A stretch of DNA of 64,000 bases, taken from Rhyzopertha dominica (taxonomy: Eukaryota; Arthropoda; Insecta; Coleoptera; Bostrichidae). Each line of letters opens with the position of its first letter. The first letter of the stretch is position 1. The translations under genes and the position numbers were made by a program. This document shows, in pieces, positions 13,040 through 57,590 of this stretch. The notes under the pieces are model-generated. The model was given only the letters and a program-made list of their open reading frames with translations. It was not told the DNA's origin and did not search any database. The stretch lies in the NCBI GenBank assembly GCA_025024175.1, contig QCXZ01000138.1:3348002-3412001 (forward strand), in the 5' to 3' direction.

Positions 13040-14182
13040 CAAATAAATGAGTTATCATTTTGTCCCACAAAACCTAGAAAACCATTTACTAAGAAGAGTT
13101 CCACAAAAAGAAACAATTCAGATATATTATTTGCTTTTCTATATTCAGCTAGTAGTCCAGTTGATAAATACATTTTACTATACACAGCAAGAGTTCAGGT
13201 AGATGGTTCTGACGTCAACTCGTCTGATCTTTTGTTTTGGGGTACATTCCTTGAACTCCTCCCTACAGGCAGTGCCATCTAACGGTGCTATAGTCAGTAG
13301 AGCTATAGCGCCTTAGTACCACTTCGATAAAATTTTCATTGTTAATTTAAATAAATAATCCTGTACAAAAAAGAACAAAATTTAAGATTGCACTAATGAA
13401 ATAATTATTTATGCTATTTTCAAATGAAAAAACTCGCGAACAGTGCAGACTGAAAATAAAAAACCAGAGAGCTCTTACGTATAGATGAATTAAATGTTCA
13501 TAATTCGTTAGCTGTAATAGTCGCACTTTTTTTTAATAAAATTTTACATACGAGCTTCTCAATGCGTTATCAAGGGGGCCCATTTTTTAAATTTTTAGTA
13601 TCACCATCTTTTTTATTTGTTAAAAAATAATAGTGATAGATTTTCCAAGAATAAAAAATTGGGCCAATTCAGAACCATTCATTTAAAAAAGAATGAGTTA
13701 AAAACTCCTGTTGGTTTTGAAGATATTTGTTGTCAAGTTTACATTGTCCCATAATAGTCATGCTTCATTGTATACAAGGCGCAAACGGCAATATTAATTA
13801 ACGATACGGTTTTTGAATGCAAAAAAGCCATAAGTTCTTCTGCAATGCATTAGACGTGCGCAATATAAAATTACGGGCGTGTCGAAGATGCAGCCTACCT
13901 ACAGTTTTTATTATACTTTTAGTTACACATAGCTATTACTGAAAAAACCTCGAAATGTATCGAGCCAACTTTTGGTATCCAGGAAACACGAAATTATCGA
14001 ACTTGTCTTATCTTTTTTTTGAATACTTTTTTCGTAGATGATCATGGTTCTCAACAAATTCTACTTAGAAAATAGCTGTGTATTTTAAATCAAGCAGTAC
14101 AGTTTTATAAGGTTTCAGACTTTTATTCAATTATCGTAAATCTCAGACTATCTATATTTTCTCGTAAAATCGTTGATCTTGC
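13040..14182. other. No recognisable gene
   Basis: AT-rich sequence with homopolymer runs and no frames of interest. No repeat boundaries were seen. Confidence 0.6.
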
Positions 14183-14273
14183 GAGAATTACAGTGTGGAT
14201 GACACCATGCCAACTCTGTGGAGAACTAATTATTGCCACTAGATGGCATGGTATCATCCACACTGTAATTCTC
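14183..14273. repeat. 30-bp inverted repeat (hairpin)
   Basis: The arms at 14183-14212 and 14244-14273 are complementary over 30 bp with one mismatch (C versus T), separated by a 31-bp loop. It lies 11 bp upstream of the TATATAAG box of the ribozyme-bearing repeat at 14284. It could be the palindromic end of an inserted element or an RNA hairpin. No target duplication was found that settles this. Confidence 0.8.
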
Positions 14274-14283
14274 TACCTTGGCA

Positions 14284-14407
14284 TATATAAGGGAAGCCAG
14301 ATCTATGCCGTGTTGTCTGCGTTGGAACTATAGCTATGCTGAGGAGGCTTTATAAGCCGAAATAGCTGTCCACAGATTGTCTTCACACAGGCGACATGGC
14401 ATAGACG
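14284..14407 (+). mobile_element. Ribozyme-bearing short repeat, copy at 14.3 kb
   Basis: This is homologous to the 3' half of the 305-bp element at 24112-24416. It has TATATAAG at 14284-14291, then 18 bp from box start to the closing stem, which begins TCTATGCC at 14302 and pairs with GGCATAGA at 14398-14405. A hammerhead core lies in the middle. The closing stem continues inward with Watson-Crick and G-U pairs. The 5' half seen at 24.1 kb is absent and replaced by the 14183-14273 hairpin. A TAATTATT octamer occurs at 14227-14234 and 14408-14415 and could be a target duplication. However, it would split the hairpin, so I do not rely on it. Confidence 0.65.
14334..14375 (+). ncRNA. Type I hammerhead ribozyme, canonical core
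   Basis: The motif reads CTGAGGA (14339-14345), helix II GGCTT/AAGCC with a TAT loop (14346-14358), GAAA (14359-14362), a very short helix III, and a GUC cleavage triplet ending at 14370. Helix I is formed by CTATG (14334-14338) and CACAG (14371-14375): four pairs and one A-C mismatch. It is then extended by a long outer stem. All invariant core positions of the hammerhead family are present, including the G-C pair next to the core. Compared with 24.3 kb, helix II differs completely in sequence yet still pairs, and helix I shows two compensatory pair changes. Self-cleavage is inferred, not tested. The helix III of two pairs may need dimerisation. Confidence 0.8.
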
Positions 14408-14409
14408 TA

Positions 14410-15179
14410 ATTATTATGGTTGAACTTTATGTGATTTTTTGTAAACCAAAATGTAAGAGAACCTATTTAGTTTTCGAACTAAACTAATTGGTGAATTTTT
14501 CTCAAGTTGTTCAAAGTTGATAATGAACACCTTATTTACTACTTTTAGTTACCAAATCACATATAAAATGTTTGGTAGCGGAAGGGCTAAGACAAAAAAT
14601 CACTATACAGTCATGTGAAGCTTGTAAACACGTTAATTATTTGAATGTGCTTTATTTCACAATTTTCGTCAGATAGTTTTGAAAATAATAAAGAGCAAAA
14701 AATGTGAAGATCTTACACTTGTAAGTTGTCGCCATCTATCGGTGACATCTGAAACTTCTATCATCCTTCTTCTAAAAAGAGGCCCATTTTTGTAGCATGA
14801 CATATTATCCTTTTAAGTAGAGTTATCCATAGTGTATTTAGAAGGCGCGATTCTCGTATGATGCTTGATCAAGGTTTGTGTTGCAATTGAAACGCAAGTT
14901 GAAAAAGATCTTCGAAAAGGAAATAAATCCAGATTACAATTGTCAAGGAAGAGCGGAGAGCACTGATCGCATTTTTACAATTGCACACCTATAAGCCCTA
15001 AATACTTTTTTCACAATAGATTCCTTGGTTCTTTTACCAATCTTTGTCTTCACACCCTTATTGATATACGAGTAGTATAACAACCAAACAGCTCTGTCCA
15101 CATAGTAGACGACCATCAAATTGAACGTCGTATCGAAAAAGACACGAGGGATACACGAGAATAACACGTGATGCCCAAC
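14410..15179. other. No recognisable gene
   Basis: AT-rich; no family, RNA or repeat with defined ends recognised. Confidence 0.55.
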
Positions 15180-18359: not shown

Positions 18360-19807
18360 GACATGTTGTTTTCCGGGCTGGTTCCCACGTTGGTTATTAG
18401 ACCTTGACGTTTCGACACTCATGTCGGTGTCTTCCTCAGAAGTAGCTCTGAAACTGAAGTGTCCTAGCCTGCTCGGGTATTTATACTCGTCCGGGTCACT
18501 GACGCGTGGGCGTTGTTACGCATGACCGGTTTACAGATTCCAGGTAGGTCGATGCCCCGGTCTCGGTTGTAATTGTGCGGGTTCTTCTGGATTTCGATGG
18601 CTTCCTTGTACAGTCTCGGCCAGAATCTCGCTTCCCTCGACAGCATTTGTGCTTCCTCGAATTTGATGATGTGGCCAGTCTCCATTCGATGTTCTGCTAC
18701 AGCCGACCTATCACCTTGCCGCTCTCTGGTGTCCCTCATGTGCTCCTTGATTCTCGTGCTCATGTGCCTTCCGATTTGGCCGATGTAAACCTTCCCACAG
18801 CTGCATGGGATGCTGTACACACCTTGTGTTTGTAGTTCCTCAGACGTCGAACGATATTTCGGAAAGGCGTTAGCTATCTTTCTCGGGGCGGTGAAGATGG
18901 TGTTTATATGATGTCTTCTCAGCATCCGTCCGATCTTATCTGTACATCCATTGACGTAGGGCAGGTATGCTGCAGCAATGTTCTCCTTGGGTTCCTTCCT
19001 CCGTGGTTGCTTGTTGATAGCCTTCTCAATCTGTGCCTTAGGATATCCGTTCTTCTGTAGTGCTCTGCGTAGATGTTCTAATTCCTCTTCTAGGTGGTCT
19101 GGTTCGCTGACTAGCTTTGCTCGCTGTATCAGCGTGTTGATGACTCCTTGCTTTTGTGCGGGGTGGTGGTGTGAATCTGCATGCAGGTAGCGATCCGTGT
19201 GGGTTGGCTTCCTTTAGACCCGATATCCTAGCGTACCGTCTTGTTTCCTTGTCACCATCACATCCAGGAAGGGTAGGGCGCCATTGGTCTCCATCTCTAT
19301 TGTGAATTGTATGCCGCTATGGATACTATTTAGATGGTCCAGGAACTCCTTTATGTTCTGTTCTCCATGCGGCCAGACGGTAAAAGTGTCGTCCACGTAT
19401 CTAAACCAACACTTAAGTTTAAGCCGTGCCGATGCCAATGCAGTTGTCTCGAAGGCTTCCAAGTAAATGTTAGCTATCAGCGGAGAAAGCGATGACCCCA
19501 TCGGAGCACCTTCTGTCTGCTCGTAGTATTCCTCCTGGAACTTGAAGAAAGTAGATTTCAGGCAGATATTCGCAAGTTGGACTAGTTCTTCATCCAAGTC
19601 TTCTTCTTGTAGACGTTTCTTCAACTCCCTTAAGGCATCGTCCAATGGTATCTTCGTGAAGAGTGAGGTGATATCAAAGCTTACTAAGATGTCCTCCGGG
19701 TCCAGTCTGATATTCTTCATTTTCTCAAGAAGGTCTTCGGCGTTCCTGACGTGGTGCTCTGTCTTTCCTACGCGTCCTTTCAGGGTTCGAGCGATGTATC
19801 CAGCTAA
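18360..19807 (-). mobile_element. Penelope-like element, 5'-truncated copy 1
   Basis: On the minus strand the copy runs from about 19807 to 18360: reverse transcriptase, linker, GIY-YIG endonuclease, then a 3' non-coding part with a hammerhead motif (18399-18449). A 9-bp CTTGTGCTT occurs at both edges (18351-18359 and 19808-19816) and is a plausible target duplication, though the inner one overlaps the end of readable coding homology. The part upstream of the RT palm is missing, as is common for Penelope elements. The coding region is broken by a single stop, so the copy is young. The 3' region is nearly identical to copy 2 at 49.1 kb. Confidence 0.85.
18399..18449 (-). ncRNA. Hammerhead motif in the Penelope 3' region (copy 1)
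   Basis: Read on the minus strand: CTGAGGA (complement of 18433-18439), one unpaired A, helix II GACAC/GTGTC, GAAA (complement of 18410-18413), then CGTC with a GUC cleavage triplet ending at 18406. Helix I is CTT/AAG, an internal loop, then AGA/TCT. Helix III is only the self-complementary ACGU, so monomer folding would be unstable and a dimer is likely. Penelope-like elements are known to carry hammerhead motifs in their terminal repeats. The extra A between core and helix II departs from the textbook core. Confidence 0.7.
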
Positions 19808-19823
19808 CTTGTGCTTCCATTAT
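18464..19823 (-). pseudogene. Penelope-like RT / GIY-YIG endonuclease, one in-frame stop
   Basis: One continuous minus-strand frame begins at the truncated end (about 19823). It shows RT blocks: ILVSFDITSLFTKIPLDDAL with the first catalytic Asp, EGAPMGSSLSPLIANIYLE, WFRYVDDTFTVW with the catalytic Asp pair, and ALPFLDVMVTRK. A TAA at 19214-19216 interrupts it just after GTLGYRV. The same frame then continues through RKPTHTDRYLHADSHHHP, a linker, and a GIY-YIG domain (GVYSIPC, CGKVYIGQIGR, IKEH, AVAEH, ETGH) to a stop at 18464. The element would copy itself by target-primed reverse transcription, with the nuclease cutting DNA. Only the one stop and the missing N-terminus disable this copy. Confidence 0.88.
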
Positions 19824-19929: not shown

Positions 19930-21526
19930 TGAGCTTTCCTAAAAAATTTTATTGAATTTGGTGCTCAGAATACGAAAGGCGATTGAAGAATTTTTCATGC
20001 ATCCTTATCATAAGCATATAAGTGGAAAAGACGTACTGGAAGCTGTCAGAACATTAAAGAACAAACAAACGGCAGGGATAGACTTAGTTCCATGTTTTCT
20101 TGTTAAAGATTGCTTAAGTGTGCTTGTTGAACCACTTTATTTTTTATTCAATCTAATCTCCATTTCCAGAAATGTGGAAGACATGTATTGTATGTCCTGT
20201 ATTCAAAGCTGGTGACTGTGGGGATGTGCGCAACTATAGACCGATTACGATTTAATGCAATTTTGCAAAATTATTTGAGGCTGTTGTTCATAAAAATATT
20301 TATTGTGAATTGCGACCACACCTGTCAGAAAATCAGCTTGGTTTTATGAAACATAGGTCCACTGTGACAAATCTTGCCACGCTTTTCCAATTCATAGCCG
20401 AAACTTTGGACGGTGCGGTGGTGGCCAGGTTGACACTATTTATTCGCAGTAAGGCGTTTGATCAAATAGATCACGACATATTGTTGAGGAAACTAGAGAT
20501 GGTGGGGGTTAATGCACCATTATTATTGCTTTTTAAGTCGTATTTGCTGAACACATTGTATTTTGTGTGTTACGGTAGATTTTGGTGTACCGCAGGGGTC
20601 TAACTTGGTGCCCTTACTGTTTTCAGTATTTGTTAACGACCTACCACTGATCATAAGATGCCCTTGTTTAATATTTGCAGATTATCTTAAACACAAATAT
20701 TAGTACTCTAAATGACTGTGTATTATTACAAAATCAAATTGATAATTTATATACCTGGTGTGTAAGTAACAACCTAAAATTGAATATTTCTAAATGCAGA
20801 GTAATTTCCTACACTCGTAAGAAAACTCCATTAGTGTATGATTATGTGATGAACGGCCAAATCTTAACAAGAGTAGAATCTAAAAGATTTAGGTATAATG
20901 TGGGATGTTTCATGTACATTTAGTGATTATCTTACTGCTCTGGTCTCGGAATGTTATAAAACATTGGGATTTGTTATTCGTAACACCAAGGAGTTTGGTA
21001 ATATTTTTGCATTGAAATCTTATTTTGTTGCACTAGTGCGATCCTAAAATTGAGTATGGATACAAAGACGGTTCCTAAAGTATTTGTTTTTTAAAATACA
21101 TGGTGTATGCCCTGAGAGGGGTATAGAGTATGGTGTTCTATTAAATATGTTTGATTTCTAATTTCTTTTGCACAGAAGAGTTAAAATAAGCATATCATTT
21201 TATTACATGATAACATTGATTGTTGTTTGCTACTGACTAAAGTTAATTTCTCTATTCCACGTATTTCTAGCAGAGATGCACCGCTTTTCTATTGTAATGT
21301 GTGTAAGAGTTGTTATTATGACGAGGGCTCCCGTGAATCTAATGTGTAATAATTTTAATTGTTATGGCAGCTCTCGCGATATTAATTTTGTATCACGTAG
21401 ACAGTTGTTGAGCGGGGTTTGCTTTGTAAGGTAATTTTATATTGTCTATTTGTCTGGAACTATAGAATAATTGTCCTGTAATTGGTGTATACCATTGGAC
21501 AATAAAGAGTATTATTGTTATTATTT
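19930..21526 (+). pseudogene. Non-LTR retrotransposon (LINE) reverse transcriptase, decayed
   Basis: RT blocks appear in order across several frames: VRTLKNKQTAGIDLVPCF (about 20050), LSENQLGFMKHRST (20310 onward), RSKAFDQIDHDILLRKLEM, GVPQGSNLVPLLFSVFVND (about 20583-20640), and IFADYLK, where YADD/FADD has become FADY. Then comes the thumb region, NLKLNISKCRVISYTRK (about 20771) to the YKTLGFVIRNTKEFGN block (about 20956). The 3' end has AATAAAG followed by a TATTATTGTTATTATT microsatellite-type tail at 21500-21526, typical of insect LINEs. Frameshifts and the lost Asp make it dead. It begins about 110 bp after Penelope copy 1 and is 5'-truncated. It resembles Jockey/R1-group elements, but the clade was not tested. 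Confidence 0.8.
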
Positions 21527-21529
21527 GAA

Positions 21530-22540
21530 GCTGAAAATGGAATTGCCGCTAGCGATAATTTACTTCGATATCGGGAATTATTTCAATCTTTTATGGGCTC
21601 CCATTAATAATATTGATATGGAGGGGATGCTCTGGTTTCAATAGAATGTGTAAGATGTAATTATTGCAAGAAAAATTTAATTGTTATGTTGTCTTGCAGC
21701 GTGACTATGTAAAACAATTTAACTCGAAATATTATGTTTTAAATCGAACGCAGACTGCTCACTAAATGATTAATTACTTGAGCCTAGCTTCGAAAAACCA
21801 GAGGCTCGAGTGTGGCGGATCTAAAGAGTTGAAATAAAGGAGTAATCTTCCAAGGAAAATTCTAGATTTCAACTAATTTTTCCACACAAGTCTATCGAAA
21901 GTATGAACGTGTATTTTGTCAGCAGTCCGAAAAACGGATTGGCTTTAGTAGCACGAGTGGATAAGTATACATATATTATCCCCAGGGGTCGGTCACTCAT
22001 AAATTTACCTTCATTTTGCTCTTCACCAATGTACTCTTTAACAACCATCTTTCGAGGCTTGTATGCGAAAATGGGGCACATAAATCTGTCACTATCTGAA
22101 GGTATAAAAGGTACTTATTTGAAAAAAGGCGACATAAGGATATTTAACCTACAATCCTAGATATAAATTAATTACAGTTACTCAAATTATACCGAACAAG
22201 AAAGAAGTCTAACTAACCAGTCATGTGTCCAGATATGATCCCAATGGGTAATAATTAAAACTATAACAGGACCACTCCAGAAATCAGTTTTCACTGGTTT
22301 ATAGAGTTTATACTAATATTTGCGTGGCCACAGTGTGTAGAACGGAAGTACCATTTCTTCCGTGCAAATCACCATGGCCAACTATGAAAGCTCTCGAGAA
22401 CAGTCGTGGTTATCGAGAATAATAACTGCGAGATACACTATGCCGTATCATGGCAATTTAACAGTGCTACCCACCCGTCAATGTGGGGAACCTTTACCTG
22501 CACCTTGTATACAGGCTCTCTGCGTTGGGACTCTAGCTGT
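21530..22540. other. No recognisable gene
   Basis: No family recognised. Overlapping short frames at 21869-22160 on both strands look like chance. Confidence 0.5.
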
Positions 22541-22541
22541 G

Positions 22542-22563
22542 CTGAGAAGGCTTTATAATACGA
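22542..22563 (+). ncRNA. Decayed hammerhead core related to the 14.3-kb copy
   Basis: The sequence leading in (TGCGTTGGGACTCTAGCTGTG, from about 22521) closely resembles the 14.3-kb repeat. It runs into CTGAGAA at 22542-22548 and GGCTTTATAATACGAGG. The core has lost an invariant G, and the helix II 3' strand and the GAAA are mutated, so it should be inactive. It marks another copy of the same repeat family. Confidence 0.5.
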
Positions 22564-24098: not shown

Positions 24099-24284
24099 AT
24101 CTTACCTGATAAGAAATTAGGATGGCAATGCCATCTGTCAGCATTACACTGACATGATGACAAAGCCACCTAGCCGCCTTAACGGGTACTACTTCCTAAA
24201 GGAAGTGACCTGTAGCCTAACAAATTGGCATGCAACTGCATACTTCAGTTTGACAGCAGGCCCCCACGGCACTTTTTGTTTTGG

Positions 24285-24292
24285 TATATAAG
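24285..24292 (+). promoter_or_regulatory. TATA-like box of the ribozyme element
   Basis: TATATAAG begins 18 bp before the closing stem at 24303. The 14.3-kb copy has the same octamer with the same 18-bp spacing (14284 to 14302), and the 47.2-kb copy keeps a mutated version. Conserved spacing suggests a promoter role, but no transcript start is known. Confidence 0.4.
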
Positions 24293-24333
24293 CAAAATCA
24301 GTTCTATGCCGTGTTGTCTACACTAGACCTAAA

Positions 24334-24376
24334 CTACACTGATGAGCTGTAATGACAGCGAAATAGTTATCTGCAG
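24334..24376 (+). ncRNA. Type I hammerhead ribozyme, canonical core
   Basis: CTGATGA at 24339-24345, helix II GCTGT/ACAGC with an AATG loop (24346-24359), GAAA at 24360-24363, a two-pair helix III with an AGTT loop, and an AUC cleavage triplet ending at 24371. Helix I is CTACA (24334-24338) with TGCAG (24372-24376), four pairs and one A-C mismatch. It is followed by internal loops and the 21-bp outer stem. All invariant family positions are present. The innermost helix I pairs (A-U, C-G) are G-C and U-A in the 14.3-kb copy: compensatory change. The tiny helix III suggests weak monomer cleavage or dimer action. No other RNA class fits as well. Confidence 0.85.
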
Positions 24377-24429
24377 TTGGTTGAGGTGTAGACAGCACAG
24401 CATAGACATGCATTTTATCTTACCTGATA

Positions 24430-33074: not shown

Positions 33075-33174
33075 NNNNNNNNNNNNNNNNNNNNNNNNNN
33101 NNNNNNNNNNNNNNNNNNNNNNNNNNNNNNNNNNNNNNNNNNNNNNNNNNNNNNNNNNNNNNNNNNNNNNNNNN
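33075..33174. other. Assembly gap, 100 N
   Basis: A run of exactly 100 N, the conventional size for a gap of unknown length between contigs. The left arm of the palindrome starts at the first base after it, which matters for judging whether the palindrome is real. Confidence 0.98.
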
Positions 33175-36100
33175 TTCATATAGTAATTCAATTTCAGGAT
33201 AACATCTCATAAATATAAAAATGTTTACTAGGAAATCATACCTACAGAAAATATCCCCTTCACAGCTTCACTTACAATATATTGCAGAGAGACCCATCTC
33301 GTAGGCACATTAGCCACATAAATTACTTCTCTTTGTAACCACCGTATATTACACATTGCTCCTAAAATACCAGGAAGGACTGCTTATTATCATGTAATGA
33401 TTTAAAATACATCAAGAATAACGTAAAATTTAGAAGCATAAATACGTGAAATTTTCTTTTCACACAGTTAATTGTAAAGATAAGTACAGAAGAGCATTGT
33501 CATTGTAATTACACGAAAATCTTTAAATTATTTTATTTTACTTAGAAAACAACACTTGTCCCTAGAAAAGTTAGCTTTAATGTATTTCGGAAAGATCAGT
33601 ACATGCATGACTACCTACATTAGATGTAAATGTTAACAATTCATTTAGGAATGTGAGCAAACTAGATCTGAACCTTTATGTTCTTGCTACAGAATGGTAT
33701 ACTTTTTCAATGACATAGAAGCGTTATTGACATTTTTTCTGCAAATTAAAGCATTAAGGATTCACACCTGAGACCTAGATTGACATAGCGACATGCACTT
33801 TATTAACCTTTAACTGCAGGTACAGGTGCATTTCATTCACTTAGAAACTTCAGTACTGCCTCTGGTTGGTTATAATGTCAGATATCATTGGTTCACTCAG
33901 TAGGAATGTATTAATCTTAATTAATTTTAGGTCAAATATTTATAATTCAGTGTGTAACATTTTAAAACCAGTTTTGCTTATATTATTAGATGGATATTGT
34001 GTATGCTATGAAGTGTATGACGCACCTGAAAGATAACAAACAATCATGAATAAGGTAGTTAATTATCTCAAAACTTTTAAAATTCTTAATAACCATATAG
34101 TCTATATAGGACATAACAATGCGTTCAGTGCTTACCAGACTTTTTATTGGATAATAAGGAATAGTTGCTAAAGAACTCAACTGCATCATATGGCAATACT
34201 TTTTGAATGGATCTTAAAATAACTTTAACCTTTCATTTTAAAGAGGCACTTGAGACACTGCAAGATTAATATCACAACTGACCCCAACAGATTTATCCCA
34301 CGACATGAAATTTGTAATCTAGGCGTTCCCTACAGGATAATCTTGTTAAGAAAAGCATTTGCTAGTAATAGCATACGTATATTAATAAGTGTCAGACATC
34401 TTAACATAAGTACAACAATTTATATGCCATTGTTTACTTATAGGTATTATTTTGCAATCATATGCCATTTTCTGATAGTTTACTCTTTCATTTTACAATT
34501 TGGACTTATTATGCGAAAATGTATACCAGTGTACATGCTATTGAGCACTTGTAGTTATCTATAATCACATTTTTCTTTAGAATTAGCTACTTAGGAAATT
34601 ATAAAAGCACAAATTTATTATACCTTCTTCTCTGTTAGCTTGTGTCTATAGATTTAGTGTTATTTCTGCCATTGTAATATTTTTAAAAGGAGGTACTCAC
34701 CACAAAAGAAGTGGAGTTCATATTCAACGAATATGTGCTCCTTCTCAACTACACCAAAATATAAATATTTTACTACGGTTAAGCAGGTTAAAGAGGAATA
34801 GTTAATCGAAAATTGAGACTTAATATGGAAAATATCGATCATTGTTATGAGATTGGTGTAATTTTATAGAAAAAGACCATACATAACCATCCTATATCGG
34901 GGCTCAAAATTTCATGAGACATTGCGATTTCTTAATTTCCTTAGTGGTTATGATTCTATTGCCATGCAGAATATGTTATGTAGACTTCTTACGACTATCA
35001 AAGCTACTTTATCTAAAAGTATAAAAACTCATGTTCGTTTATAGCCAACTAGTCAAATATATTGAGAAATCTTACACTTCCTCTGATAGGTAAATGTTAT
35101 TTTATTACGGAATATTCTTATTACGCCATTAAAACAATGTTAAAATTTGATTATTTAGTTGCATTTCACATATGAGTACTAGAGGTGCTTTGAGATTTGG
35201 TGTTTTTCGTTCTATAAAGCATGACATCAACACATAGATTGATTTAATACACACAGAAAGTAAAATATTTGGAATATATTTTTTTGCAGTAGCCGGTTTT
35301 CTGATACCTATCCACATCTTAACCCACAGAACTGGAGCTGTACGAATCGAAAATTTTGATACGAAACCGTTTTTTTTTATACGTGGAACGCATTTTTCTA
35401 ATAAAACCTGTTTTAGAAGATACCTAGTAGGCAGCGCATACCTTTACAAAACTTCTTTTATACTTCTGGTTAGATTTAAGCAAGCCGCATTTGATGTGAT
35501 CCCCAGGGGAGCAAGCATGCATCAGCAATTTGTATAAAGAAGATGATCGATTTAAATACATATTCTTTTATGTGAAAACACGGAGAGGAATGCTGAATTT
35601 TACCTTAAAATAATGCAACCCAGGCCCTACACCTGCCTGAAAAACAGAGTTTTGTTTTAATTCTTCTCTTCTTCCAGCTGAACCAGCACTAAATCACTTC
35701 TAATGAACAACAACTGTGAGAAAACAAAGTACGGTATACACCTGGCTGCTGATTACTTTAACATTCTGCATATTCATTGTGATCTAGTCAAACCCCGAGA
35801 TTAAGGAAGTTTATTGATTTTGTTGAAAGAAATTCTATAGCTTGCATATACCTTGTTTCATATATATTTAGACCTGGCTCTTTTTTTTTTCAAATCACGT
35901 AAAGTCGATAAATTCAAGACAATTGATACATAGCTGTTTCTAAATCCAGTTGTGGCAGTGGAGAACAAACGAAACTCACAATGCATACAACGCTACATCG
36001 ATCTTAATCTGTACCTATCAGAAGCATTTTAGGTGGAAATTAAACAGTAATTCTATGAAATGTGTGTGTTTTGCCAGTTTTCCTAGTATAAACTGCAAGA

Positions 36101-36283
36101 GATAGTTAGTTATGCAAACAACATAAAAAAGCCTGTTCATCAAAAGAGGCTTTAGCATATTTTCCTCGTATCATTGATATGTATTTCAATCCATTTTAAG
36201 TAATAAAAAGAAAGACATGTTGATCTTCAACGAGCCCAATCCATTGAGTCATTGATGAGATATGCAATTTTGGGTAAATTAAG
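33175..36283 (+). repeat. Large palindrome, left arm (about 3.1 kb)
   Basis: This arm is the reverse complement of 36446-39557. Paired positions sum to 72728 over most of its length, 72729 near the centre and 72732 at the outer edge, so only a few small indels separate the arms. Single-base differences also occur (for example near 35940 and 36212). The arm contains no recognised gene; the identical frames mirrored in both arms (34250-34564 and 38164-38478) match no family. It begins directly after the N gap. Confidence 0.93.
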
Positions 36284-36445
36284 GAAAAATAGCTATTTGT
36301 TTAATAAGGTAATGAAGTAAATTATTTAACACCGAGGCTGGCATTCAGGATTACGATTTCTTAAAAAAAAATGTAATAAACATGAAACTGCAACCAGCTA
36401 TATGTGGATATATAATGTAATCTCTAACTTCAAAAAGCTGTTTTG
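36284..36445. repeat. Palindrome spacer (162 bp)
   Basis: Complementarity breaks at 36284 (G opposite G at 36445). The unique 162-bp centre contains a T/A-rich stretch and no recognised feature. A spacer of this size is compatible with a real inverted duplication, but also with a fold-back join. Confidence 0.85.
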
Positions 36446-39400
36446 CTTAATTTACCCAAAATTGCATATCTCATCAATGACTCAATGGATTGGGCTCGTT
36501 GAAGATCAACATGTCGTTCTTTTTATTACTTAAAATGGATTGAAATACATATCAATGATACGAGGAAAATATGCTAAAGCCTCTTTTGATGAACAGGCTT
36601 TTTTATGTTGTTTGCATAACTAACTATCTCTTGCAGTTTATACTAGGAAAACTGGCAAAACACACACATTTCATAGAATTACTGTTTAATTTCCACCTAA
36701 AATGCTTCTGATAGGTACAGATTAAGATCGATGTAGCGTTGTATGCATTGTGAGTTTCGTTTGTTCTCCACTGCCACAACTGGATTTAAAAACAGCTATG
36801 TATCAATTGTCTTGAATTTATCGACTTTACGTGATTTGAAAAAAAAAGAGCCAGGTCTAAATATATATGAAACAAGGTATATGCAAGCTATAGAATTTCT
36901 TTCAACAAAATCAATAAACTTCCTTAATCTCGGGGTTTGACTAGATCACAATGAATATGCAGAATGTTAAAGTAATCAGCAGCCAGGTGTATACCGTACT
37001 TTGTTTTCTCACAGTTGTTGTTCATTAGAAGTGATTTAGTGCTGGTTCAGCTGGAAGAAGAGAAGAATTAAAACAAAACTCTGTTTTTCAGGCAGGTGTA
37101 GGGCCTGGGTTGCATTATTTTAAGGTAAAATTCAGCATTCCTCTCCGTGTTTTCACATAAAAGAATATGTATTTAAATCGATCATCTTCTTTATACAAAT
37201 TGCTGATGCATGCTTGCTCCCCTGGGGATCACATCAAATGCGGCTTGCTTAAATCTAACCAGAAGTATAAAAGAAGTTTTGTAAAGGTATGCGCTGCCTA
37301 CTAGGTATCTTCTAAAACAGGTTTTATTAGAAAAATGCGTTCCACGTATAAAAAAAAACGGTTTCGTATCAAAATTTTCGATTCGTACAGCTCCAGTTCT
37401 GTGGGTTAAGATGTGGATAGGTATCAGAAAACCGGCTACTGCAAAAAAATATATTCCAAATATTTTACTTTCTGTGTGTATTAAATCAATCTATGTGTTG
37501 ATGTCATGCTTTATAGAACGAAAAACACCAAATCTCAAAGCACCTCTAGTACTCATATGTGAAATGCAACTAAATAATCAAATTTTAACATTGTTTTAAT
37601 GGCGTAATAAGAATATTCCGTAATAAAATAACATTTACCTATCAGAGGAAGTGTAAGATTTCTCAATATATTTGACTAGTTGGCTATAAACGAACATGAG
37701 TTTTTATACTTTTAGATAAAGTAGCTTTGATAGTCGTAAGAAGTCTACATAACATATTCTGCATGGCAATAGAATCATAACCACTAAGGAAATTAAGAAA
37801 TCGCAATGTCTCATGAAATTTTGAGCCCCGATATAGGATGGTTATGTATGGTCTTTTTCTATAAAATTACACCAATCTCATAACAATGATCGATATTTTC
37901 CATATTAAGTCTCAATTTTCGATTAACTATTCCTCTTTAACCTGCTTAACCGTAGTAAAATATTTATATTTTGGTGTAGTTGAGAAGGAGCACATATTCG
38001 TTGAATATGAACTCCACTTCTTTTGTGGTGAGTACCTCCTTTTAAAAATATTACAATGGCAGAAATAACACTAAATCTATAGACACAAGCTAACAGAGAA
38101 GAAGGTATAATAAATTTGTGCTTTTATAATTTCCTAAGAAGCTAATTCTAAAGAAAAATGTGATTATAGATAACTACAAGTGCTCAATAGCATGTACACT
38201 GGTATACATTTTCGCATAATAAGTCCAAATTGTAAAATGAAAGAGTAAACTATCAGAAAATGGCATATGATTGCAAAATAATACCTATAAGTAAACAATG
38301 GCATATAAATTGTTGTACTTATGTTAAGATGTCTGACACTTATTAATATACGTATGCTATTACTAGCAAATGCTTTTCTTAACAAGATTATCCTGTAGGG
38401 AACGCCTAGATTACAAATTTCATGTCGTGGGATAAATCTGTTGGGGTCAGTTGTGATATTAATCTTGCAGTGTCTCAAGTGCCTCTTTAAAATGAAAGGT
38501 TAAAGTTATTTTAAGATCCATTCAAAAAGTATTGCCATATGATGCAGTTGAGTTCTTTAGCAACTATTCCTTATTATCCAATAAAAAGTCTGGTAAGCAC
38601 TGAACGCATTGTTATGTCCTATATAGACTATATGGTTATTAAGAATTTTAAAGTTTTGAGATAATTAACTACCTTATTCATGATTGTTTGTTATCTTTCA
38701 GGTGCGTCATACACTTCATAGCATACACAATATCCATCTAATAATATAAGCAAAACTGGTTTTAAAATGTTACACACTGAATTATAAATATTTGACCTAA
38801 AATTAATTAAGATTAATACATTCCTACTGAGTGAACCAATGATATCTGACATTATAACCAACCAGAGGCAGTACTGAAGTTTTCTAAGTGAATGAAATGC
38901 ACCTGTACCTGCAGTTAAAGGTTAATAAAGTGCATGTCGCTATGTCAATCTAGGTCTCAGGTGTGAATCCTTAATGCTTTAATTTGCAGAAAAAATGTCA
39001 ATAACGCTTCTATGTCATTGAAAAAGTATACCATTCTGTAGCAAGAACATAAAGGTTCAGATCTAGTTTGCTCACATTCCTAAATGAATTGTTAACATTT
39101 ACATCTAATGTAGGTAGTCATGCATGTACTGATCTTTCCGAAATACATTAAAGCTAACTTTTCTAGGGACAAGTTGTTGTTTTCTAAGTAAAATAAAATA
39201 ATTTAAAGATTTTCGTGTAATTACAATGACAATGCTCTTCTGTACTTATCTTTACAATTAACTGTGTGAAAAGAAAATTTCACGTATTTATGCTTCTAAA
39301 TTTACGTTATTCTTGATGTATTTTAAATCATTACATGATAATAAGACAGTCTTCCCTGGTATTTTAGGAGCAATGTGTAATATACGGTGGTTACAAAGAG

Positions 39401-39557
39401 AAGTAATTTATGTGGCTAATGTGCCTACGAGATGGGTCTCTCTGCAATATATTGTAAGGTGAGCTGTGAAGGGGATATTTTCTGTAGGTATGATTTCCAT
39501 AGTAAACATTTTTATATTTATGAGACATGTTATCCTGAAATTGAATTACTATATGAA
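36446..39557 (-). repeat. Large palindrome, right arm (about 3.1 kb)
   Basis: Reverse complement of 33175-36283 at roughly 99 percent identity by eye. Differences cluster toward the outer end, near 39150-39180 and 39450-39530. The arm continues without a break into single-copy DNA beyond 39557, whereas the left arm stops at the gap. Confidence 0.93.
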
Positions 39558-42960: not shown

Positions 42961-42985
42961 TCACCGTTTTGCTCAGCTATCTGAA

Positions 42986-43579
42986 CCTGCTGTGGTTTAG
43001 CCTAGGTTGTGAAATGACAGTTATTTAGCTCAATTAAGTCGTGCTGTAACCGTTATTTGACGTTTTTGCCACAAAATCACGGTTCAAATCTAGGAATACT
43101 CTTAGTATTAATTTGTTTATTCTCATTCCAGATAACTGATAATCATTGCATGCTGGTGGCTTTAATTTCTTATCTAGTGCATTTTTAAAGAAATCGTAAA
43201 CCTGCTGTGGATTAGCCTAGGTTGTGAAATGACAATTATTTAGCTCAAATAAGCCGTGCTGTAAACGTTATTTGATGTTTTTGCCACAAAATCACGGTTC
43301 ATATCTATGAATACTCTTAATATTAATTTGTTTATTCTTATTCCAGATAACTGATAATCATTGCATGCTGGTGGCTTTACATTCCTATTTAGTGCATTTA
43401 TTTAAGAAATCGCAAACCTGCTGTGGATTAGCCTAGGTTGTGTAATGACAGTTATTTAGCTCAATTAAGTCACGCTGTAACCGTTATTTGACGTTATTGC
43501 CACAAAATCACGGTTCAAATCTATGAATACTCTTAATATTAATTTGTTTATTCTTATTCCAGATAACTGATAATCATTG
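42986..43579. repeat. Three tandem copies of a 215-bp unit
   Basis: Units start CCTGCTGTGG at 42986, 43201 and 43417 (periods 215 and 216). The third stops short at GATAATCATTG near 43579. Each carries an ACGGTTCAAATCTA-type segment (ACGGTTCATATCTA in the second copy), resembling a polymerase III B box, about 100 bp into the unit. It may therefore derive from a SINE. Copies are roughly 93-95 percent alike by eye. Confidence 0.85.
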
Positions 43580-43810
43580 AAACCCTCCAGCAGGCCACAA
43601 CGAAAATCCATTGTATGAAATATGACAAAAAAATAGTATAAAACCATAGAAAAACATGGGCATAGGTAATTATTAACCATTTACTGTCAAAATGTGCTCC
43701 CTAAGCGGACTTAGCGGTAAGTTTTACCTAATATCCCATCTCAGTTTAAAAATGATAAATTGATGAGTGGCCCTACTCTTAAATAGACAAGAATAACTGC
43801 CGTTAGGTAA

Positions 43811-44819: not shown

Positions 44820-45540
44820 TGTTATTGATAAATTTGCCTCAGTTCCCACGAAAATACACAATTTAAGAAAAGTTAATAGTCACAACTGTCACTAATGGTC
44901 AGAACAGAATGCACACTGTTTTCGGGATTTCAATTTTCAAAATATTTGAATAAATTTGTATTCTTTTGATTGTTTATTATTATTTTATCATATTGCGGTA
45001 TATTCAAAATTAAAAATAAATTATTTAACAAATGCTGTAAAAAATATACAATAAACCTTGACATCACATTTATGAAAATATATAATGCCGAAGTCAAACA
45101 TCTGGTATATCAATAAATAGTTTATTAGCCATGTTTTTATTACCAGATCTATTACTAACGAGTTTATGCCCATCTTAAGCTGTAGGTATTCGTTCTGCCT
45201 GAGAATATTCCCACAATCAGTCAAATAACCATTATTGAAGGTATGAAGGACAGGCATTAATCTTATCCGTATATTAAACATTCATTTACGTTATAATTTA
45301 TTAACCATACATCTATCAGCAGTAAAATGTAGGCACATAAACTTTAACAAGCATTTAAGATAACAGATAATTTTGTCAGGTAAGTGCATATTACTCAAAT
45401 GAATATGATAAACTTAATGAGCGTTAGTAATTTTGTATATACATGTTCAGATGCAACATTGTTTACGCTTGGTGTAGCGTTGCAACATTATTTTAAAATT
45501 TCATTACACTATTAGTTACAAGAATAATTTTTGTTGCGTC
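44820..45540. other. No recognisable gene
   Basis: AT-rich; an 86-codon minus-strand frame (45021-45281) is unrecognised. Confidence 0.5.
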
Positions 45541-46968
45541 ATGAACATTATTGTAAGCATAGCAAAAACTGGAGATTTTTATGCTATACCCATGATCTGT
45601 TATAAAGCATTAGTGGTGCCACTGCCTAAATCTACCCATGTAACAGGCTTAAAAGATCTAAGACCGATAAGTATTCTCCCCGTTATGTCAAAACTATCGG
45701 AATCTGTGATGAATTGTCAGTTGCGAGAGTACTTGTTAGCTTGTGATATATTGCCCGCTCATCAGTCTGGTTTTAGACAAAATCATAGCAGTACAAGAGC
45801 ACTAATTCATGTTACGGATGATATCATGCGCGCTACTGATAATGGCTTGCTAACAGCATTGGTTTTGTTGGACTACAGCAATGCTTTTGATTCTATTGAT
45901 CATGATATATTAATGACAGTTTTGAGCTTTGTTGGTTTAAGCAGGAACGCCGTTCTAATGCTCAAAAGCTATATTTCAAATAGGAAGCGAATAGTAAAGA
46001 TAGGTGACAGCTTGTCGTCACCACTTTCTTCGAATTGCGGAGTACCTCAGGGTTTCATCTTGGGACCGCTCTTGTTTACACTATACACTATACTATAACT
46101 TGCATGGTTCTTTAAAATGTTGTAACATTCATGTGTATGCGGATGATACGCAGCTGCATTATTCATTTAATGATAGGGATGTAGGTATTGCGGTGCAGCA
46201 GATTAACAATGACTTGACATCCATTTACAGGAGCGCCACTGATCACTGTTTGTCATTAAACGCTAAGAAGACTGCTGTGCTCTTGTTCGGTAATAGAAAT
46301 AAGCGTGAATCTGTAAAACATCATGCAAAGGTTTTGCTAAACAATAATGAGCTGCTTATCTCTGACTACGCACGCACTTTGGGTCTTGTTTTGGACAACT
46401 CGCAAGGAACCTGCATATTTGTACAACAAGTTATGTTTTCGCAACGAGGTACATTCTGCCAACAAAAAGTCAGGACACCTCGTGTCTTGTTTTGCACATA
46501 AAACCGCTCTATTCCCAATCTTTTTCATATTGTATGTACAAATTTTATAATCGGTATTTTGGAGAGATCACGTCCAAGAAAAAAGGTGGATTCAATAAAT
46601 TTATCTTTGGTTGCCTGTTTGATGCACAACGTGCTTATTTCAAACTGGCTGTTATACTGTTATTGCGTACTGTTTGTTCTTTTTTCGTGCATAATTTCTA
46701 CCTTTTATATCGAGGTTAAGTGGAAGAAGAGTAAAGCATATACTTTGCTTTACACCTGAACTTCGCCACGAGATTTTTTTGTTTCTCCAGTTGTATTCTT
46801 TTTGTATTAGGTATTTTTTAAATTTTACATTATTATTTANTTTTANTATTACTTTACATTTTATTTTTGTGTCTACTATAAAATATGTCCATGTTCTAGC
46901 TTATAATATTCTGTATATACAGCGGGGAAATGGAAGAATAAAAGACTATTATTATTATTAGTTTGGTG
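45541..46968 (+). pseudogene. Non-LTR retrotransposon (LINE), 5'-truncated, frameshifted
   Basis: The first frame (45541-46098) carries RT blocks VVPLPKSTHVTGLKDLRPIS, HQSGFRQNHSSTRALIHV, LVLLDYSNAFDSIDHDIL with the first catalytic Asp, and NCGVPQGFILGPLLF. A frameshift near 46090 moves to the second frame, with HVYADDTQLHYSF (catalytic YADD intact, about 46134-46170), HCLSLNAKKTAVLLFG and RTLGLVLDN. Homology then breaks near 46400, apparently by an internal deletion. The 3' end near 46938-46966 has AATAAAAG followed by ATTATTATTATTA, the microsatellite tail typical of insect LINEs. The endonuclease domain is absent. It resembles Jockey/R1/I-group elements. Confidence 0.83.
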
Positions 46969-47198
46969 GATGTGCAACAATGCAATCATGATATTATCAT
47001 TAATTCTATCAAACTTTTTACCGTAATCTAGCATATGGGCATTGATGGCATACCTTCATCCTAGACATGATGTTGCTAAACATTAGGTTTATTCTTTAAC
47101 GCAACTTTTTGGTCTAGATGGCTTTGTCATCATGTAAGTTGATTGCCTATAGAGGATACTGCCATCTACTTTTCTACTTGCATCATACCATTGCTTTG

Positions 47199-47340
47199 AT
47201 AAATAGGCAAAACCAGTTGTATGTCATGCTGCCTGCACTAGACCTAAACTACACTGACAAGCTGTAACAATAGCAAAACAGATCTGTTTGTAGATGGTTG
47301 CGGTGCAGACAGCATAGCATAGGCATGTACTCTAAAATAA
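47199..47340 (+). mobile_element. Decayed copy of the ribozyme-bearing repeat
   Basis: Homologous to 24285-24410. It keeps the pre-stem segment (AAATAGGCAAAACCAGTTG), the closing stem GCTGCCTGCAC (47229-47239) with GTGCAGACAGC (about 47302-47312), and the same loop sequence TAGACCTAAACTACA. The ribozyme core is damaged: CTGACAA at 47254-47260 for CTGATGA, and CAAAA for CGAAA. Helix II still pairs with one wobble. Predicted inactive. The 5' limit is uncertain. Confidence 0.7.
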
Positions 47341-49172: not shown

Positions 49173-49770
49173 CTAGTCCGCTCGGGTATTTATACTCGTC
49201 CGGGTCACTGACGCGTGGGCGTTGTTACGCATGACCGGTTTCCTGATTCCAGGCAGTTCAATGCCTCGGTCTCGGTTGTAATTGTGCGGGTTCTTCTGGA
49301 TTTCGATGGCTTCCTTGTACAGTCTCCGCCAGAATCTCGTTTCCCTCGACAGCGTTTATGCTTCCTCGAATTTAATAATGTGGCCAGTCTCCATTCGATG
49401 TTCAGCTACAGCCGACCTATCACCTTGAAAGTCTCTGGTGTCCCTCATGTGCTCCTTGATTCTCGTGCTGATGTGCCTTCCGGTTTGGACGATGTAAACC
49501 TTCCCACAGCTGCATGGGATGATGTACACACCTTGTGTTCGTAGCTCCTCAGTCGTCGAACGATATTTCGGAAAGGCGTTAGCTATCTTTCTCGGGGCGG
49601 TGAAGATGGTGTTTATATGATGTCTTCTCAGCATCCGTCCAATCTTATCTGTACAGCCATTAACGTAAGGCAGGTATGCTGCAGCGATGTGCTCCTCTGG
49701 TTCCTTCCTCCGTGCTTGTTTGTTGATAGCCTTCTCAATCTGTGCCTTAGGATATCCGTTCTTCTGTAGT
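49173..49770 (-). pseudogene. Penelope GIY-YIG endonuclease fragment
   Basis: The minus-strand frame begins LQKNGYPKAQIEKAINKQ at the junction 49770. It continues through the linker (AAYLPYVNGCTDKIGRMLRR) into GVYIIPC, CGKVYIVQTGR, IKEHMRD, AVAEHRMETGH, then meets an in-frame TAA at 49356-49358. The same frame goes on to a natural stop at 49173. Relative to 18.4 kb, the G of YIGQ is V. The RT is absent. Confidence 0.82.
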
Positions 49771-49985
49771 GGCCACATTATCAAATTCGAGCAAGCACAT
49801 ATGCTGTCGAGGGAAGCGAGATTCTGGCCGAGACTGTACAAGGAAGCCATCGAAATCCAGAAGAACCCGCACAATTACAATCGAGACCGGGGCATTGAAC
49901 TGCCTGGTATCTGGAAACTGGTCATGCGTAACAACGCCCACGCGTCAGTGACCCGGACGAGTATAAATACCCGAGCGGACTAGGA
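49771..49985 (+). pseudogene. Inverted GIY-YIG C-terminal segment
   Basis: The plus-strand arm encodes the last part of the same protein, from GHIIKFEQAHMLSREARFW to RTSINTRAD and a stop, without interruption. It lacks the catalytic GIY-YIG core and has no start of its own, so it is a partial duplicate produced with the inverted insertion. Confidence 0.75.
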
Positions 49986-53849: not shown

Positions 53850-55630
53850 ATAGGTATAACTAACTCATTCTATGTCCTTGCTTAAGCTTAGTACAGCAGC
53901 CCAATAGAGTAAGGAACGAGTACAGTAAGGAAGGAAACGATCAATAAAATCATTATCGAAATCCATGGTAAATGTACTATTTAGAAAATTAGCAAATGCA
54001 TTTGCAATGGAACCTGTTTGCCAAAGGCCACACTCTTGTATTTTGGAATTCCTGGTATTATTGTCTGCCCTTTCATATGACTAAATATGTTAATATAATC
54101 TGTAACATGATGTAACACCGTCTTTAGATTATTGCGGGTAGTTCATAAAAAATATATCTACATAGTTCAGAGCTGTCAAACTTTTTACATCTTCTACAGG
54201 ATAACGATAGGAAAAATTTATTTAATGATAGTCAAATCAAATCATTTTATTAATGGGATATTATTTCCAGAAAAGACAAGGTCCCAGCGTTGAGCTAGTG
54301 GAATGCACTCATTATATAAAAGGTTGTGAAATGCTGTGAACAACGGCGAAGAATAATTAGAGCTAGAGCAATAAACTGGAAGCATGAAAATCACCTAATA
54401 AAATATCAGCGGCCTTGTAGCCTCGCTTGATTATTATGGTGAATCAGGTGATGACTAACTCATTTAGAGCTGGTTCGAGTTGCCAAGTAATATTGATGGC
54501 GTTTGTGCAGTGAAGTCTCACTTTGAATCATTAAGGATTCTGCAGCATCAGAAAATTTGCATCAGGATTTTATGCAAGCAGGTAAAAGACGAATGGCGAT
54601 TGAGGAATGCACTCTTAAAGTCAAGTCTCCCATTCAACTTTAGTGTTAGTTTCCAGGTATACGAAGAGCAACAGAAATTCATGGTTAATTTTATATTCAC
54701 TTAGAGCTGGGGTAAAAATATGAACGCAAAGTTACTATTTTTGTCGCTATTGTTATGAGAGCAAAGCGACAAACAAAACAAGCTGGTTTAAGAAATTGTA
54801 TGTGTTTCAAAGGGACTATAATGGAGTCGAAGCCACCTGAAAAATTCGTAATTCCAAAGAACGAGAAGACTAATTTCAAAAATCGGAATTGGAAATTCTA
54901 ACATAGAACTCAGGGAGAACTACAGTTGTTAATATGGAGGAAGTATGCCAAAGTGTCGAACGCAGTCCTGTCACGCACAAACGCATATTGTCAGTCACTT
55001 TCACTCTTGATGTGTCAAGATCATAAGTGCACCGCAAGTTAAGAGTAATTCTCTTATATGTCGCCGGCTTCTGGATTATACACAAGGTGACCGATTCATT
55101 CGGCAAATTATCACACGTGAAACACAAAAAAATCCTGCTGCGACACGAAACTCGTGGCTAAACCCTGGAGATAAGCCTAGAACCGTTGTTAAAGCAGAAT
55201 AATGAGGTGTGGAGACAGTGTCAGCAATATGTCACATGTGGGGCTGTCTAGTCCTCGTCAAATTTTCTAGAATGTTTTCTGACCTTTAGAAACATCGATT
55301 TTTGAGTTCACCGCCGAGGGAGAATTTCGCCAAACTGCCAAACCTGAGGATTATCTCGTCTTCTAGTGAATCTTCCAGAATACTCTATGACATTCTCTAA
55401 AAGTCAGACATTTCACTTCTCCCCTGGAATTAATTTTCCACAATGTTCTATGACCTTCTGGGAAGGCCAATTTTCAATTTCTTCACCTCGACATAGTTTC
55501 AGCAATACAATGTCACACTTGTAGGGTACCCTAGCCTCGAAACAAGAAGTTTTGGGGTCCATCATTGCGAGACGATTTCAGCAAACTCCACTGTAATGGA
55601 CAGGACAGTTTGGCCCCAAGGTTAAATATT
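53850..55630. other. No recognisable gene
   Basis: Short frames only. The 74-codon frame at 54480 has a faint LINE-tail look (FESLRILQHQKICIRILC), too weak to call. Confidence 0.5.
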
Positions 55631-55639
55631 TTATATATG

Positions 55640-55990
55640 TTGTAAACGAGATTGACCCCTTCCAACCCCCACATCACCCAAACTACAGGAGCCCCAACAC
55701 GCAACCACCATAGTGCACGATGGGAGACTGGAGGCAACCAACTCACACACAAAAAGATTAGGAAGAGAGAAGGTACAAGACTTAGATTTAGTAAAATCAA
55801 CATTGACACAAATTTCAAATCGTTGTTCTTGAACGGATAAGAAGGCTCTGAACTGATTAATGCGACCAAAGCATCTGCCAAAAGCCAAATGGTAATGATT
55901 ACAAGAAGAACTTCACTTACCAGCTTTGACTCGGAATCGAACCCGGGACCTGTCGATTGCTAGTCAAACAGCCCTGAACTACAAAGCCCT
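55640..55990 (-). repeat. tRNA-derived SINE
   Basis: On the minus strand a tRNA-like head (55990-55922) has A-box TAGTTCAGGG, B-box GGTTCGATTCC (complement of 55933-55943) and a 7-bp acceptor-type stem GGCTTTG/CAAAGCT with one wobble. A body without coding sense follows to about 55640. The acceptor pairing is unusually good for a SINE, so a tRNA pseudogene is the alternative. The body boundary is a guess. Confidence 0.6.
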
Positions 55991-57180: not shown

Positions 57181-57428
57181 CGGTAATGGAATAACACGGC
57201 TGATCTTTAAATGGCAAACAGGGCGGTTGCACGTTCGACGTGATCCAACAGACAGAAGCTCCGCTGAATCTGCACAGTTGGTCATCATGAAGAGCTGGCG
57301 GTGGTAACGTGACCACGATCTGCGTCTTTACAAAACAGGTGCAGATTTGTAGCATATAAAGGATGGCCGGGGTATTCCCTGCCTTTATGCCATAATTTAA
57401 AAAAGAGAAACCATAAATAATTAAGAAT

Positions 57429-57590
57429 TTAGGATGGCAATGCCATCTGCCAGCATTACACTGACATGATGACAAAGCCACCTAGCTGCCTTAACGGGTA
57501 CTACTTCCTAAAGGAAGTGACCTGTGGCCTGACAAATTGGCATGCAATTGCATACTTCCATTTGACAGCAGGCCCCCACGGCACTTTTTG
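57429..57590 (+). repeat. 5' half of the ribozyme-element family
   Basis: Matches 24117-24278 over all 162 positions with about seven substitutions and no indels, and ends exactly at the CTTTTTG run. The TATA box, stem and ribozyme are absent. Ending at a T5 run would fit a transcript stopped by RNA polymerase III and then retroposed, but no target duplication was seen. Confidence 0.8.

Follow-up and report, generated by a model that had tools for sequence, protein, structure and literature searches.

A type I hammerhead motif in a small insert with retroelement features in the beetle Rhyzopertha dominica

A hairpin at positions 24303 to 24406, on the plus strand of a stretch of Rhyzopertha dominica DNA, carries the letters of a hammerhead ribozyme, which raises the question of whether this is a real ribozyme motif and, if so, what kind of element carries it. 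The window, by which we mean the whole stretch analyzed, spans 64,000 bases, has a GC content of 31 to 42% per 4-kb block, and holds abundant broken transposons. The published genome has a GC content of 35%, and both this value and its Penelope content fit the window (PMC8956072). The hairpin, referred to as c24, was recognized from its sequence, a descriptor scan, its fold z-score, and an Rfam match to HH9 below the gathering score.

In c24, the 5′ arm of a closing stem (24304 to 24324) faces its 3′ arm (24385 to 24405), and 20 of the 21 pairs form, the single mismatch being C-A at pair 7. Inside the stem, the inner strand of helix I, ACTACA (24333 to 24338), is partnered by TGCAGT (24372 to 24377), with five of six pairs formed and an A-C mismatch at the third. 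The catalytic core consists of CTGATGA (24339 to 24345) and GAAA (24360 to 24363), separated by helix II, GCTGT-AATG-ACAGC (24346 to 24359), in which 24346 to 24350 pair with 24355 to 24359 to give 5 bp. The last A of GAAA begins a weak helix III of 2 bp, closed by an A-U pair around the tetraloop AGTT (24363 to 24370), and C17, the end of the AUC triplet, falls at 24371. The initial annotation had described the motif with a paired helix I in a 21-bp stem; the core, the 5-bp helix II, GAAA, and AUC are as it reported, but helix I and the stem each carry a mismatch. Its cut site, placed after 24371, coincides with the self-cleavage position that we predict from the motif. Beyond an internal loop, helix I is prolonged by the long closing stem. 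With helix I open-ended, helices II and III closed, and a C at position 17, where H is expected, the layout is that of type I. A UA bulge in helix I might touch the AAUG loop that caps helix II, as a candidate loop 1-loop 2 tertiary contact. Judged by its letters, c24 is a real hammerhead motif of type I.

Two genomic copies had been annotated; BLAST within the window recovers three hairpins, c24, c14, and c47, and one 40-bp fragment. Copy c14 (14303 to 14404, plus strand) has the core CTGAGGA at 14339 to 14345, GAAA, and a GTC triplet that places C17 at 14370, as annotated. Read directly, its helix II is GGCTT/AAGCC where c24 has GCTGT/ACAGC, and the innermost helix I pairs A-U and C-G of c24 become G-C and U-A, both in agreement with the annotation. 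The claim of a shared invariant core held for the invariant bases and GAAA, although the letters are CTGAGGA rather than CTGATGA, and the sole difference falls on the seventh core position. This position is free in the consensus CUGANGA, as given in a passage of PMC8490949, and the c14 core is therefore counted as intact. The A-C mismatch at the third pair of the inner helix I is present in both copies; c14 has one further mismatch there, leaving four of six pairs, and two mismatches in its closing stem. In copy c47 (47219 to 47322, plus strand), the structure is kept, but the core is broken at G8 and G12, reading CTGACAA with GAAA changed to AAAA. According to the relevant passage of PMC3088659, G8 normally pairs with C3 in hammerheads; since c47 retains C3 while G8 has changed, it is not a compensated variant. 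Thus, c24 and c14 retain all invariant core bases of CUGANGA and GAAA on the two sides of helix II, whereas c47 does not.

Compared with c24, c47 is 79% identical over 47195 to 47327 and c14 is 76% identical over 63 bp, and the fragment (22519 to 22558, plus strand) is 90% identical to 14316 to 14355 of c14. The sequences fall into two subfamilies, c24 with c47 and c14 with the fragment at 22.5 kb. The c47 region (47195 to 47337) lies about 0.5 kb downstream of reverse transcriptase (RT)-like reading frames at 45478 to 46719 on the same strand, and c47 may be inserted in, or be part of, the 3′ region of that RT-like element.

The motif was searched for on both strands with a strict descriptor, comprising the core, helix II of at least three pairs, an A-U-closed helix III, and five of six inner helix I pairs. 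One locus was found in the window and none in 40 first-order Markov shuffles. A relaxed descriptor, asking for the core, helix II, and GAAA, matched exactly two loci, at 24339 and 14339, and again none in 40 shuffled windows. All three hairpins are more stable than each of 200 shuffles, with fold z-scores of −6.5 for c24 and −5.4 and −4.4 for the others. The inner 64 nucleotides (nt) of c24 alone reach a z-score of only −1.7 (11 of 200 shuffles equally stable), and much of the hairpin's stability therefore comes from the closing stem. In an energy model that takes no account of tertiary contacts, the fold with the hammerhead pairs enforced is less favorable than the best predicted one by 6.4 kcal/mol in c24, 10.6 kcal/mol in c14, and 1.4 kcal/mol in c47. 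By these predicted energies, c14 probably misfolds. Only c24 combines an unbroken core with a helix I that could function. It looks like the youngest copy and is the sole copy likely to be active, while c14, c47, and the 22.5-kb fragment look older and decayed.

The check proposed with the annotation, an Rfam score above threshold, came out negative: the search of the whole window gave no match at the gathering score. Up to an E value of 10, the sole hammerhead match was HH9 on c24, with 21.7 bits (gathering score, 52) and an E value of 0.84. When 151-base stretches were searched, a hammerhead was the best of 4,227 Rfam families for all three copies, each time below threshold. The top family was HH9 for c24 (E = 0.002), Hammerhead_3 for c14 (22.4 bits against a gathering score of 48.5; E = 0.0078), and HH9 for c47 (18.3 bits against 52; E = 0.025). 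The alignment of c14 to the type III model runs through a competing UAGCUA/UAGCUG helix, and this match therefore points to hammerhead-like letters and not to a functioning type I structure. Hammerhead_HH9 (RF02275) shares its layout with c24, with a helix I of six pairs followed by an internal loop and an outer part of helix I, and with a similar start of helix II; unlike c24, this 77-position model has no long closing stem. A covariance model built from the three copies found only those three above noise on the plus strand. Its minus-strand matches at the copy sites reflect the palindromic stem, and two further matches of 13 bits are noise. A viral relationship was also considered and rejected: a 16-base piece of the stem occurs in four viral contigs by chance, as these show no further BLAST similarity to the window at an E value of 1e-3 and no match to the covariance model. 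No viral contig matched an 18-base piece taken from helix I and the beginning of the core.

Pairs with changes on both sides were counted between the copies. In a hand alignment, 11 of 35 pairs had such a change (5 of 21 in the closing stem, 2 of 6 in helix I, 3 of 5 in helix II, and 1 of 3 in helix III), and 95 of 105 cells pair. Since that alignment was fitted to the structure, the count was repeated on an unsupervised MAFFT alignment of the three copies. Here, 10 of 35 pairs changed on both sides (closing stem, five; helix I, two; helix II, two; helix III, one), compared with 4.6 when the 3′ letters were shuffled, and 90.4% of 104 cells were paired, compared with 84.6%; none of 500 shuffles was as high in either measure. 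Sliding the partners by one to three columns left at most three two-sided pairs and 42% of cells paired, although deriving the structure from c24 already favors it over slid versions. Between c24 and c14, eight two-sided pairs were counted on the hand alignment, compared with 2.4 under random placement of the substitutions (0 of 5,000 as high), and between c14 and c47 there were eight, compared with 2.6 (P = 0.0004). For c24 and c47, the count was three against 0.7 (P = 0.02), and the number of broken pairs was not clearly low (P = 0.054). All these counts come from three sequences in two subfamilies, among which separate events are not distinguishable. Together with the best Rfam families, the pairing counts support the view that the type I structure has been kept while the sequence changed, in line with the initial reading of covariation around an unchanged core as a sign of selected structure. 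The shape of the RNA seems to have mattered; if there was selection, its targets were the active source elements, and c24, c14, and c47 themselves need not have been under it.

We then considered what carries the ribozyme. The c24 hairpin, about 102 nt long, makes up the 3′ third of an insert at 24112 to 24416 (plus strand) of 305 bp, with a GC content of 43.6% and no long terminal repeat (LTR). The insert is flanked by exact 13-bp direct repeats, ATCTTACCTGATA at 24099 to 24111 on the left and ATCTTACCTGATA at 24417 to 24429 on the right. A search of the 700 bp to each side of the hairpin for exact direct repeats of at least 9 bases returned only this pair and one of 9 bp. When 220 bp upstream were loosely compared with 60 bp downstream, 23 of 2,000 random placements shared at least 13 bases; when the 3′ edge was held 11 nt past the stem, allowing 1 nt of leeway, 4 of 1,500 random placements agreed at 12 of 12 positions. 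The 5′ edge agrees with the start of a repeat of the element's 5′ part at 57422 to 57590 (plus strand), which is 169 bp long and 95% identical to 24110 to 24278. Neither end of the insert coincides with the cleavage site, the 3′ end being 45 nt beyond the predicted cut. A 235-bp insert around c14 (14181 to 14415, plus strand) is suggestive; its imperfect repeats at 14169 to 14180 and 14416 to 14427 agree at 10 of 12 positions in the same 3′ register as in c24, but 84 of 1,500 random placements were as good. Moreover, a rival exact 13-bp pair (13914/14540) lies further out, and 83 of 1,000 random placements have at least 13. No duplication was found in register for c47 (best, 8 of 12), nor was any found for the 57.4-kb repeat.

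Behind the 57.4-kb repeat there is no ribozyme, and a different sequence follows. Retroelements normally lose their 5′ ends, and a lone 5′ part is unusual for one; module exchange or a later break is a possible origin. Among the copies, the 5′ parts contain inverted repeats with letters that are only partly alike; directly upstream of the c14 hairpin, an imperfect palindrome spans 14183 to 14273 (83% over 94 aligned positions). Each of the three copies has a plus-strand TATA-like box beginning 19 bp ahead of its stem, reading TATATAAG at 24285 to 24292 and at 14284 to 14291 and TAAATAGG at 47200 to 47207. Its role as a promoter is doubtful, because an RNA polymerase II start about 30 bp on would fall in the 5′ arm of the stem.

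The insert and its 13-bp duplication support a retroelement setting. As outlined in PMC7229834, metazoan non-LTR retrozymes have units of 150 to 450 bp with one type I hammerhead, a GC content below 50%, no LTR, and a duplication of more than 4 bp; they occur as tandem repeats, their RNA is highly self-paired, and their genomes also carry Penelope-like elements. The c24 element resembles them, within that outline, in length, GC content, lack of an LTR, and duplication, and likewise in its strong self-pairing and in the Penelope-like sequence of the same window (PMC7229834). Folded as a circle, it reaches −104.3 kcal/mol, compared with −70.0 (SD, 8.8) in 60 Markov shuffles, the best of which gave −95.7. 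It differs from the tandem retrozymes of that account in that the copies in the 64-kb window are single, and from metazoan retrozymes in the 21-bp stem that extends its helix I (PMC7229834). Retrozymes seem to be devoid of promoters according to a review (PMC7761336), whereas a TATA-like box recurs here. In addition, the weak helix III with a palindromic loop, AGCU in c14 or GATC in c47, recalls hammerheads that cut as dimers, as sketched in PMC7229834 and PMC6155905. Taken together, we consider it likely that the c24 locus is a monomeric copy of a small nonautonomous 305-bp retroelement of the animal type I hammerhead group, which takes in non-LTR retrozymes and SINE-like elements. The element joins this known group and founds no new one. 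Its build is retrozyme-like, but its membership is incomplete, as tandem copies were not seen in the window and circles are only predicted.

Tandem Repeats Finder returned two rows for the window, neither on a hammerhead copy, and the copies are all single. Elsewhere, at 42984 to 43615, a unit of about 215 bp, within the size range of retrozyme units, occurs three times in a head-to-tail row (second and third copies 93% and 81% identical to the first). This array (42984 to 43579) was rejected as a retrozyme array, as the relaxed scan found no hammerhead motif in it. A near-perfect inverted duplication at 33231 to 39498, with arms of about 3 kb (33231 to 36288 and 36441 to 39498; 97 to 100% complementary in pieces) around a 152-bp center, begins just past a gap of 100 N at 33075 to 33174 and is either a recent giant palindrome or an assembly artifact.

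The strongest competitor to a retrozyme-like element is a SINE-like one, in which the hammerhead trims the 3′ end of its own transcript or is merely inherited. The element would then spread as a linear RNA whose 3′ end is fixed, and circles would never form. The distance from the closing stem to the 3′ edge is 11 nt in c24 and, with less certainty, in c14, which sets the edge apart from the cleavage site; tandem copies are lacking in the window, and the 57.4-kb repeat begins at about the same 5′ base, all of which fits a linear route. On the other hand, only two 3′ edges are available, that of c14 being weak as described above, and the two-sided changes in helices I to III would argue for selected catalysis. 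We regard this reading as possible, though probably not the correct one. Sm-alpha elements of Schistosoma have an RNA polymerase III promoter. Described as SINE-like repeats with a type I hammerhead, and with a related element of 335 bp, they resemble the c24 element by description, within what PMC8490949 relates of them. The repeat pDo500 of the cave cricket Dolichopoda is likewise an insect repeat with a hammerhead-like structure; by the description excerpted from PMC2808323, it is satellite DNA.

A Penelope-like origin was suggested by the RT sequences of the window. On the minus strand, the region at 18464 to 19819 is taken by us, from its sequence and from the usual layout of the family, to be Penelope-like with a GIY-YIG-like part. 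Positions 19214 to 19819 match RVT_1 (E = 1.3e-12), a Pfam search of 18464 to 19213 gave no family, and no hammerhead is adjacent. Of 359 relatives of this frame, the best 120 include 43 rows with a species name, representing 16 beetles (including the top row), 23 other insects, 3 reptiles, and 1 entry labeled E. coli; a Rhyzopertha dominica protein matches the frame at 83 of 87 residues. A second Penelope-like fragment, at 49356 to 49874 on the same strand, was identified by DNA and frame similarity, and further RT frames at 20256 to 20603 and 45478 to 46098 (plus strand) were taken for LINE type. A second RT search gave 813 relatives, few of them named among the best 120. No relatives were found of a supposed host exon at 55531 to 55959.

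The Penelope-like RT sequence in the same window would fit a remnant whose coding part was lost, leaving a pseudo-LTR hammerhead. Moreover, Penelope-like elements carry minimal type I hammerheads with a weak or missing helix III and an association with RT, in the account that PMC7761336 gives of them, and helix III of c24 is weak too. Against this, both fragments lie on the opposite strand at about 2 kb or more from every copy, and the relaxed scan found hammerheads neither close to these fragments nor anywhere on the minus strand. The pseudo-LTR layout, with terminal-repeat hammerheads flanking an RT gene on the same strand, was not encountered in the window. Unlike those hammerheads, which sit in pseudo-LTRs and are often tandem in that account (PMC7761336), c24 is a stand-alone, complete 305-bp insert with its own duplication. 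A Penelope-like remnant is therefore unlikely. The family at 18464 to 19819 is a possible candidate for the mobilizing enzyme. A literature search on hammerheads with Penelope-like elements and Coleoptera returned no beetle hammerhead among the matches listed.

The two-sided changes might also have arisen by template switching in the hairpin or by mixing of subfamilies, without selection on an active ribozyme. With three sequences in two subfamilies, the changes may stem from few events, and fold-back copying is able to alter both arms at once. Further pair types on the MAFFT alignment were reached by 45 of 500 shuffles, and the comparison of c24 with c47 alone is weak, as given above. The changes are, however, spread over four separate helices, and c24 and c14 keep the invariant core, differing only at its free position; we hold this origin to be improbable. 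A miniature inverted-repeat DNA transposon or microRNA-like hairpin, with the 21-bp stem as palindromic ends and the hammerhead letters present by chance, would accord with the long stem and with weak Rfam microRNA matches to the c24 hairpin (E = 0.068, 0.37, and 0.51, far below gathering), but is highly improbable given that the insert neither begins nor ends with the stem, that core letters with helix II occurred in none of 40 shuffled windows, and that helices I, II, and III change two-sidedly like the stem.

For the preferred reading, a retrozyme-like element, a cycle can be proposed. Transcription would either start in the element's TATA-bearing segment or reach the element by read-through, and the RNA would cut itself after C17 (24371). 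In multimeric transcripts, as in related elements, two cuts would free a monomer that a host ligase could close into a circle. A Penelope-like or LINE reverse transcriptase may then copy the RNA into new sites, where insertion would create target-site duplications of about 13 bp, as seen once, around c24. We also entertain, as a rather unlikely extension, that the ribozyme switches the RNA reversibly from a linear form with a primable 3′ end to a circle and back, under a TATA-driven promoter; the conserved extension of helix I would serve to rejoin its pieces, which about 20 bp would hold together after the cut.

Overall, these results add an insect case in which a hammerhead lies within an insert of exactly defined ends, and they show pair-for-pair change across copies of one genome. 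The element is unusual in that helix I is prolonged by a long stem, in that its 3′ end may be fixed, and in that a TATA-like box recurs at one distance from the stem in three copies. If true, a rejoining switch with its own TATA-driven promoter would set the element apart from the described retrozymes. The element also poses the puzzle of a self-cutting RNA that keeps a stem that should hinder the parting of its pieces.
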